A stretch of 12,234 bases of DNA, taken from the NCBI GenBank assembly GCA_013150955.1, contig JAADJD010000009.1:1-12234 (forward strand), given 5' to 3'. Source of the stretch: Calditrichota bacterium. Lineage in GTDB: Bacteria; Calditrichota; Calditrichia; RBG-13-44-9; J042. Both the position numbers and the translations under genes were made by a program. How positions within the stretch are numbered: the first letter of the stretch is position 1; every line of letters starts with the position of its first letter. Positions 1 through 11,665 of this stretch are shown piece after piece. Below the pieces are notes generated by a model that was not told the DNA's origin, ran no database searches, and saw only the letters and a program-made list of their open reading frames with translations.

Positions 1-88
1 CCAGATTTATCTGGGTGGACAACTCCTAAAGTAACAATAATTTACAGAACCGTTTCAACGGTTTGGGTTGTCTAATTCGCACAACGGG
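1..88 (+). repeat. MITE-like hairpin element, copy 1 (left part outside window)
   Basis: This stretch matches 3635-3714 almost base for base, except for an 8-base length difference near 35-44. It contains two short perfect hairpins. One is CCAGAT-TT-ATCTGG at the window edge. The other is AACCGTT-TC-AACGGTT at 48-63. It ends in GCACAACGGG (79-88), the same terminus as the complete copy at 3506-3714. The sequence after 88 belongs to the longer dispersed repeat in reverse orientation, so this copy also sits inside that repeat. The left terminus and left target duplication lie outside the window. No coding capacity was seen. Confidence 0.8.
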
Positions 89-297
89 TTAGCGAATATA
101 TCCAGGAAAACATTTTCATCCAGATAGAATCAAGTGTATTTTGTTATTTTTATTGGTGTTAATTCGTGCAATTTGTGGTCTATTACATAATCTGGGATTA
201 GTTATATTCGTTTTAATTCGTGTAATTGTAGGGTATTGCATTATCTGGGTTTATTCGTGTGAATTCGGATCATTCGTAGGGGAATGCATAATCCGGG
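89..297 (-). repeat. Long dispersed repeat, copy A, reverse orientation, with two extra end modules
   Basis: Read on the minus strand, 89-196 follows the left part of the copy at 5387-5551: a CCCAGATTATG-like terminus, a CACGAATTAACAC-like block, then the motif at 100-121 (reverse complement of TCTATCTGGATGAAAATG). Two more degenerate terminal modules follow on the plus strand, ending at 249 (TTATCTGGG) and 297 (ATCCGGG). This gives three end modules in a row, spaced about 50 bp. The open frame at 141-455 is a translation of this repeat and has no coding features. The right part of the parent repeat is interrupted at 88/89 by the MITE-like element. Confidence 0.75.
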
Positions 298-3382: not shown

Positions 3383-3410
3383 TCCCGGAACCCCCTACCA
3401 ATAACGCTCT

Positions 3411-3814
3411 AAATCAGATTTTGCTTTTACCTGTGAATTACACGAATTGACATAAATAATAAGCATTAAACCACGAATTACAAGAATTAACACTAATAAA
3501 ATTAACCCGTTGTGCTAATTCAGGATAAAGCAGATATTTTGAAAAACCGTTAAAACGGTTAAGAATCAATCGGTTACCTCATCTATTCTCCTGGCTGAAG
3601 CCAGGAGTGAATCGAAATTATCATTCATTAACACCCAGATTTATCTGGGTGGACAACTCCTAAAGTAATACAGAACCGTTTCAACGGTTTGGGTTGTCTA
3701 ATTCGCACAACGGGTAAAATTAACAAAATAAAAATGTGTTTCGAGGTTTATTATCGATTTTCTTGACATTTCTGGTTTCATTCGCGGGATTCGCGGTTTA
3801 ATGGATTATTTGGG
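3411..3814 (+). repeat. Long dispersed repeat, copy C, interrupted by the 209-bp element
   Basis: The left part (3411-3505) holds two successive degenerate left ends (ATCAGATTTTGC and CATTAAACCACGAATTACAAG). The right part (3724-3814) continues with AAAATGTG, then TTTCATTCGCGGGATTCGCG (3778-3797), and ends ATTATTTGGG. Removing the insertion and one target copy leaves about 186 bp, comparable to the 156- and 165-bp copies plus the extra end module. The whole interval fills most of the gap between the REC gene and the DUF1015 gene. Confidence 0.75.
3506..3714 (+). mobile_element. Complete MITE-like element with four hairpins and 9-bp target duplication
   Basis: The termini CCCGTTGTGC (3506-3515) and GCACAACGGG (3705-3714) are perfect inverted repeats. 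They are flanked by the direct repeat TAAAATTAA at 3497-3505 and 3715-3723, which is a target-site duplication. The element contains four perfect hairpins: AACCGTT/AACGGTT at 3545-3560; CTCCTGGC/GCCAGGAG at 3588-3607; CACCCAGAT/ATCTGGGTG at 3632-3651; and AACCGTT/AACGGTT at 3674-3689. Their centres are spaced about 45, 44 and 40 bases. There is no coding capacity, so movement must depend on a transposase supplied elsewhere. The right 80 bases match 1-88. The target-duplication boundary is ambiguous by one base (C at 3506 and 3724). The mobilising family is unknown to me. Confidence 0.75.
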
Positions 3815-11471: not shown

Positions 11472-11556
11472 CCCAGATTATGCGATAGCCTACGAATTAC
11501 ACGAATGAACACAAATAAAACCAATAAAATGCACTGGATTGTGTATGAATGAAAAT
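11472..11556 (+). repeat. Long dispersed repeat, copy E, truncated by the insertion sequence
   Basis: From CCCAGATTATGCGATAGCC onward this copy follows copy D almost base for base (TACGAATTACACGAAT, AACACAAATAAAACCAATAA), so the two belong to one subfamily. Similarity stops after GAATGAAAAT (11547-11556), where copy D continues TGTGTTCCCTGG. The sequence after this point belongs to the transposase-bearing element. The missing right half of the repeat should lie beyond the far end of that element, outside the window. Confidence 0.75.
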
Positions 11557-11665
11557 CTCAAGTTTGACACTTGAAGGGCAATTTTGGGGTATTTAGGGTA
11601 CCTAAGTTCAATAAAAACAATACAGGCTTTCCTTCCTCGCCCAAAATCCTGTGGACAACTTTTTG

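Follow-up and report, generated by a model that had tools for sequence, protein, structure and literature searches.

An IS982-type MITE carrying a hairpin array that resembles the flanks of Y1 transposase genes

The window analysed here is the whole of a 12,234-base contig from a 4.07-Mb draft genome, and it is bounded by repeats at both ends. Between two convergent genes lies a short element with four hairpins, inserted into a copy of a dispersed repeat that it divides into a left and a right part (Table 1); this copy of the host repeat also lacks about 20 nt of the repeat. At the contig start there is the truncated right half of a second copy of the element, and at the contig end (11828-12232) an IS1634-family transposase gene begins (NF033559, 64 bits, partial). 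Apart from the element itself, a second family of dispersed repeat (AACCCAGATTATGCATTAAACCACGAATTACACGAATTAACAC...) occurs in the window at 141-300, 1845-2215, 3410-3810 and 11480-11560, and elsewhere at loci L009, L021, L027, L045 and L111-L114; its ends abut truncated copies of the element abruptly, as if it had inserted into them or recombined with them.

Table 1. Positions of the element and its parts in the window.
Feature	Position	Strand	Remark
Same MITE, second copy, right half only	1-89	+	cut by contig start
Host dispersed repeat, left part	3410-3497	.	MITE lies inside the repeat
Target duplication AAAATTA, left copy	3498-3504	.	
IS982-type MITE	3505-3715	+	211-bp copy; family 219 bp with terminal A and T counted
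Left terminal inverted repeat ACCCGTTGTGC	3505-3515	+	first 16 nt match IS982 end motif AC(N)6T(N)5TT
Hairpin 1, 7-bp stem, loop aa, inverted, AACCGTTaaAACGGTT	3545-3560	-	sequence type also seen beside Y1 genes
Hairpin 2, 9-bp stem, loop ga, inverted, CTCCTGGCTgaAGCCAGGAG	3588-3607	-	covariation across genomes
Hairpin 3, 9-bp stem, loop tt, 5' foot TTAA, CACCCAGATttATCTGGGTG	3632-3651	+	covariation across genomes
Hairpin 4, 7-bp stem, loop tc, AACCGTTtcAACGGTT	3674-3689	+	
Right terminal inverted repeat (GCACAACGGGT on the + strand)	3705-3715	-	also matches AC(N)6T(N)5TT
Target duplication AAAATTA, right copy	3716-3722	.	
Host dispersed repeat, right part	3723-3810	.	

The original prediction described perfect 10-bp inverted termini within a 9-bp direct repeat, and both are present, the termini at 3506-3515 and 3705-3714 and the repeat TAAAATTAA at 3497-3505 and 3715-3723; its coordinates and description were accurate except for where the ends were divided from the duplication. 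The A before CCC and the T after GGG were invariant in all 21 copies with both flanks, indicating that these two bases belong to the element. The ends are thus better read as a perfect 11-bp ACCCGTTGTGC/GCACAACGGGT pair, with a 7-bp duplication, AAAATTA, instead of one of 9 bp. Exact duplications of 7-10 bp, mostly 7, were found in 10 of these 21 copies; mismatched pairings of left and right flanks gave 9 in 420. A fixed 9-bp reading also exceeded chance but fitted fewer copies, and the expectation that the duplication would be a constant 9 bp did not hold, since other copies show 7 to 10 bp. It had further been proposed that the site before insertion could be reconstructed from other copies of the host repeat, and indeed, paralogous undivided sites of the form ACAAATAAAATTAATAAAAT exist.

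The same genome contains about 40 copies that give clear BLAST matches and about 50 loci recognized by a covariance model, many of them full length. Measured from CCC to GGG in the alignment, full-length copies are mostly 217-218 bp long; in the window copy, 8 nt are missing between hairpins 3 and 4. The copies have no coding capacity, all 17 for which both flanks were read are intergenic, and many contigs terminate in one. The view of the element as non-autonomous and MITE-like was therefore borne out by its many copies, its target duplication, the paralogous empty sites and a transposon with the same ends in the same genome (see below). The MITE was absent from the only congener and the two members of the taxonomic family that were searched. 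One diverged copy, L038 (G000:C17:27140-27340), lacks exactly hairpin 2.

The original prediction had suggested seeking a full-length transposon that shares the termini. A pattern search for the ends returned two of them bracketing some 1 kb at C14:32468-33481. The enclosed transposase gene is frameshifted and encodes an IS982 transposase by its NCBIfam equivalog (181.7 bits, cut-off 130). A second IS982 element, 94% identical to the first, runs into the end of contig C4, and its reading frame stays open as far as that end. The window MITE and both of these elements have the terminal inverted repeats ACCCGTTGTGCTAATT in common, and both MITE ends match the terminal motif published for IS982, AC(N)6T(N)5TT, a family whose duplications are variable in length (PMC7335449). 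Given the ends shared with a resident IS982 element and duplications of 7-10 bp well above the level of mismatched flanks, the element is an IS982-type MITE. The ends, the duplications and the resident element also strongly support its mobilization in trans, in which an IS982-family DDE transposase would act on the ACCCGTTGTGC ends. The IS982 element and the MITE share only about 16 terminal nt, and we therefore rejected an origin of the MITE by internal deletion of the IS982 element. In two other genomes that carry the same MITE (G007 and G013), which like all those compared are drafts, no IS982 relative was found.

The interior of the element consists of four perfect, regularly spaced hairpins, as had been described, with centres at 3552.5, 3597.5, 3641.5 and 3681.5 and hence spacings of 45, 44 and 40. 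In 20,000 mononucleotide shuffles, the mean number of perfect hairpins with a stem of at least 7 bp and a 2-nt loop was 0.015 and the maximum was 2, indicating that four such hairpins did not arise by chance. The fold of the whole element was 7.6 SD (RNA) and 6.8 SD (DNA) below dinucleotide shuffles. An Rfam search of the window returned nothing relevant. The array has the order 7inv-9inv-9fwd-7fwd, with stems of 7, 9, 9 and 7 bp, 2-nt loops and a spacing of about 44 nt. In the window copy, the loops of hairpins 1 and 2 are purine and those of hairpins 3 and 4 pyrimidine, and the 9-bp hairpins of this family have the 5' foot TTAA.

A class-wide search revealed similar arrays elsewhere, some of which have the same ends (G007 and G013) and one of which has quite different ends (G014). 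When the genomes carrying arrays were searched for Y1 transposase genes with Pfam PF01797, the only such gene in G013 and one in a KSB1 bacterium (G040) proved to lie between arrays with stems of 7/9/9/7 bp and 2-nt loops, while those of G014 are partly flanked by such arrays. The stems AACCGTT and CACCCGGAT recur in the arrays around the Y1 genes of G013 and G040, and the flanking arrays include AACCGTTnnAACGGTT and CACCCGGATnnATCCGGGTG (G013, G040 and partly G014). A genome-wide model search also placed arrays beside Y1 genes in G013 and G019. At the level of whole genomes within the class, there was no clear association between arrays and the presence of any Y1 gene (8/9 versus 22/30), and BLAST matches to G016 and G023 (E ~1e-5) consisted of single short stretches that we did not use as evidence on their own. 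At three G013 loci (L121, L207 and L208), the loops of the outer and some inner hairpins are 20-30 nt longer but the arms are intact. The MITE of G014 (L213, L214, L212, L221 and others) is about 165 bp long, with ends GGGCGCATGTCAAATTGCA and three hairpins (7-9-7), and its copy L214 is bordered by a 9-bp duplication, AGGCGCCAA. The occurrence of similar hairpins within a MITE with unrelated ends suggests independent capture.

No Y1 gene carrying the hairpin type of the window was found in the genome of the window itself. Its only Y1 gene, which belongs to subclass 1.2 by motif, is accompanied by different hairpins with 8-bp stems and 3-nt loops; this gene (L092, G000:C35:4903-5244 and flanks) lies amid many copies of CCCCACGCnnnGCGTGGGG and TTTTGTCCttcGGACAAAA. 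We therefore rejected the resident Y1 gene as the driver of the MITE family, and the quartet of hairpins is an orphan in this genome. The original prediction had regarded the stem-loops as unusual and as possible protein-binding sites, which agrees with these findings; as a refinement, the hairpins are not part of the IS982 element and match arrays flanking genes of a different transposase type, Y1 HUH. Because the interior matches Y1-associated arrays, one might suppose that a Y1 transposase spreads the element and that the resemblance of its ends to those of IS982 is coincidental. Y1 enzymes, however, make no staggered target duplications, as established for the IS200/IS605 mechanism, whereas staggered duplications of 7-10 bp lie at the ends of this element. 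Moreover, these ends are identical to those of a resident IS982 element, the matching Y1 gene was not found in the genome, and the copies seen to lack an end were truncated or joined to another repeat. We consider spread by a Y1 enzyme very improbable.

To survey these arrays more broadly, named genomes were scanned using an alignment built from these proteins, which gave 80 loci chosen by protein similarity that span KSB1, Ignavibacteria, Bacteroidota, Cloacimonadota, Neomarinimicrobiota, Planctomycetota, Verrucomicrobiota and others. At least two perfect hairpins were present within 450 nt of the gene in 53 of the 80 loci, compared to 2 of 65 control windows, and the density of perfect hairpins fell from 3.5 per kb in this 450-nt zone to 0.39 per kb beyond 1 kb; many Flavobacteria and others had hairpins on one side or none. 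A single hairpin pattern matched 1 to 22 times per genome in 12/12 host genomes, whereas the reversed control pattern matched 0 times. The nearest upstream hairpin had a pyrimidine loop in 23 of 28 cases and the nearest downstream hairpin a purine loop in 26 of 34, indicating that the arrays are oriented relative to the Y1 gene, and the array in the window follows the same loop order. Among 70 cases of 9-bp hairpins in the named relatives, taken with the pyrimidine loop on the strand read, most have (A/T)TAG as their 5' foot.

It is conceivable that the array is ancestral: a hairpin repeat long present between genes, and unrelated in function, would have been a preferred insertion target for Y1 genes and would have been captured by MITEs. 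Such a target would be expected to leave Y1 genes between near-identical arrays in direct repeat, as we observed at L126 and L142. On the other hand, the orientation of the hairpins relative to the gene and their conserved foot resemble those of recognition sites, and the hairpin sequence varies between hosts along with the gene lineage; we regard an ancestral repeat as unlikely.

The flanked proteins are 146-150 aa long, carry the motif Y---Q--HH in 75 of the 80 loci and match the IS200/IS605 TnpA equivalog above its cut-off, and the solved structures nearest to them are those of ISDra2 and IS608 TnpA. The combination of Y---Q--HH, WQ and a length of about 148 aa defines subclass 1.2 of TnpAY1 in the classification of Quentin et al. 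2018 (PMC6006769), and by motif, length and family match, rather than by tree, the flanked genes would belong to this subclass. The same study lists the REP association of subclass 1.2 as 'no' and describes it as generally without typical IS200 end structures (PMC6006769). Its automatic REP search required a GT[AG]G foot (PMC6006769), and such a requirement would miss (A/T)TAG.

We also compared variation within the element. Among 22 full-length copies, the stems vary 2.9-fold less than the spacers (0.047 versus 0.138; permutation p < 1e-4) and are also less variable than the element ends. Covariation of the stems, which had been put forward as a check, was absent within the genome, where stem changes are mostly unpaired decay (1 compensated pair versus 24 broken), although this comparison is uninformative because the copies are too recent. 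Across genomes it was clear: the two 9-bp stems contain 7 pairs with changes on both sides. Pairing of the 9-bp stems across genomes was 96.7%, compared to 32-43% with the partners slid; the first figure is flattered by the choice of rows partly for visible hairpins, which does not easily explain the number of double changes.

This constraint would also be expected if the element were a plain IS982 MITE whose hairpins are selected by the host and act as RNA in the 3' ends of messages, where they would block exonucleases or ribosomes or end transcription. The strong RNA fold and the intergenic position of the copies, between two convergent genes in the window, are consistent with such a role. 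However, the element folds just as strongly when taken as single-strand DNA, the hairpins are not followed by a T-run, and an RNA function leaves unexplained why the same architecture surrounds Y1 genes in many phyla and why the hairpins obey an orientation rule. We judge this explanation to be quite unlikely. In this genome, the conservation of the stems could possibly reflect recent ancestry through a constrained master copy, recognition by a Y1 protein missing from the assembly, or effects at the level of RNA.

Taken together, the data are best explained by a MITE that is moved by IS982 and has captured, as its interior, hairpins arrayed like those of the Y1 (HUH) subclass 1.2 type, an orphan passenger in this genome, and we put the probability of this reading at roughly 0.8. 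The nature of the interior is supported by its architecture, sequence, spacing and orientation. The array comprises two inverted units; in each, a hairpin of 9 bp, preceded by a short 5' foot, comes before one of 7 bp, and every loop is 2 nt long. In the source genomes, by analogy with the role of REPs for TnpAREP, the Y1 protein most likely recognizes the hairpins in single-strand form. IS982 ends then most likely came to bracket an array of this type, after which the unit would have spread as an IS982 MITE, with the array being multiplied by IS982 as a passenger.

A wider proposal, which we offer tentatively and hold to be possible but doubtful, is that subclass 1.2, in many phyla, is served by REP-like two-hairpin recognition arrays of its own and that DDE MITEs have captured them at least twice, so that two unrelated enzymes, one acting on double-strand and the other on single-strand DNA, could recognize the same unit and perhaps both mobilize it. 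If these interpretations are right, the arrays would be a likely DNA substrate for a set of HUH proteins described in the literature as lacking one, and their having been missed would be explained by the GT[AG]G requirement of the earlier search set against a foot that is mostly (A/T)TAG. The recognition sites of one class of transposase would be packed inside, and multiplied by, another, providing a route by which REP-like arrays could enter genomes that have no matching Y1 gene.

Compared to known systems, the element shares with IS982 insertion sequences and their MITEs the AC ends and end motif, the short duplications of variable length and a resident IS982 transposase gene, but its interior is not a deletion derivative of the IS. 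In the literature searched, mostly from outside the subscription journals, there was no IS982 MITE with a hairpin cargo or hairpin-bearing MITE of this sort. The array itself resembles REPs, BIMEs/REPINs and REPtrons (TnpAREP/RAYT) in being made of short perfect palindromes in inverted pairs that are extragenic, dispersed and preceded by a short 5' foot. Arrays of like architecture flank a Y1 gene in G013, G040 and many named genomes, although not in the genome of the window. The foot of the named relatives, (A/T)TAG, is one base from GTAG, that of the window family is TTAA, and neither is the GTAG/GTGG by which REPs are defined. The units also differ from REPs in consisting of two hairpins (9 and then 7 bp) with 2-nt loops, and from REPtrons in that the gene family is one, subclass 1.2, recorded as having no REPs, and that the window array lies inside a MITE of a DDE transposon. 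Finally, IS200/IS605 elements (TnpAY1 subclass 1.1) encode the same protein family, as judged by sequence, whereas the genes described here have a low copy number, a C-terminal Y---Q--HH and several hairpins on each side instead of one per end.
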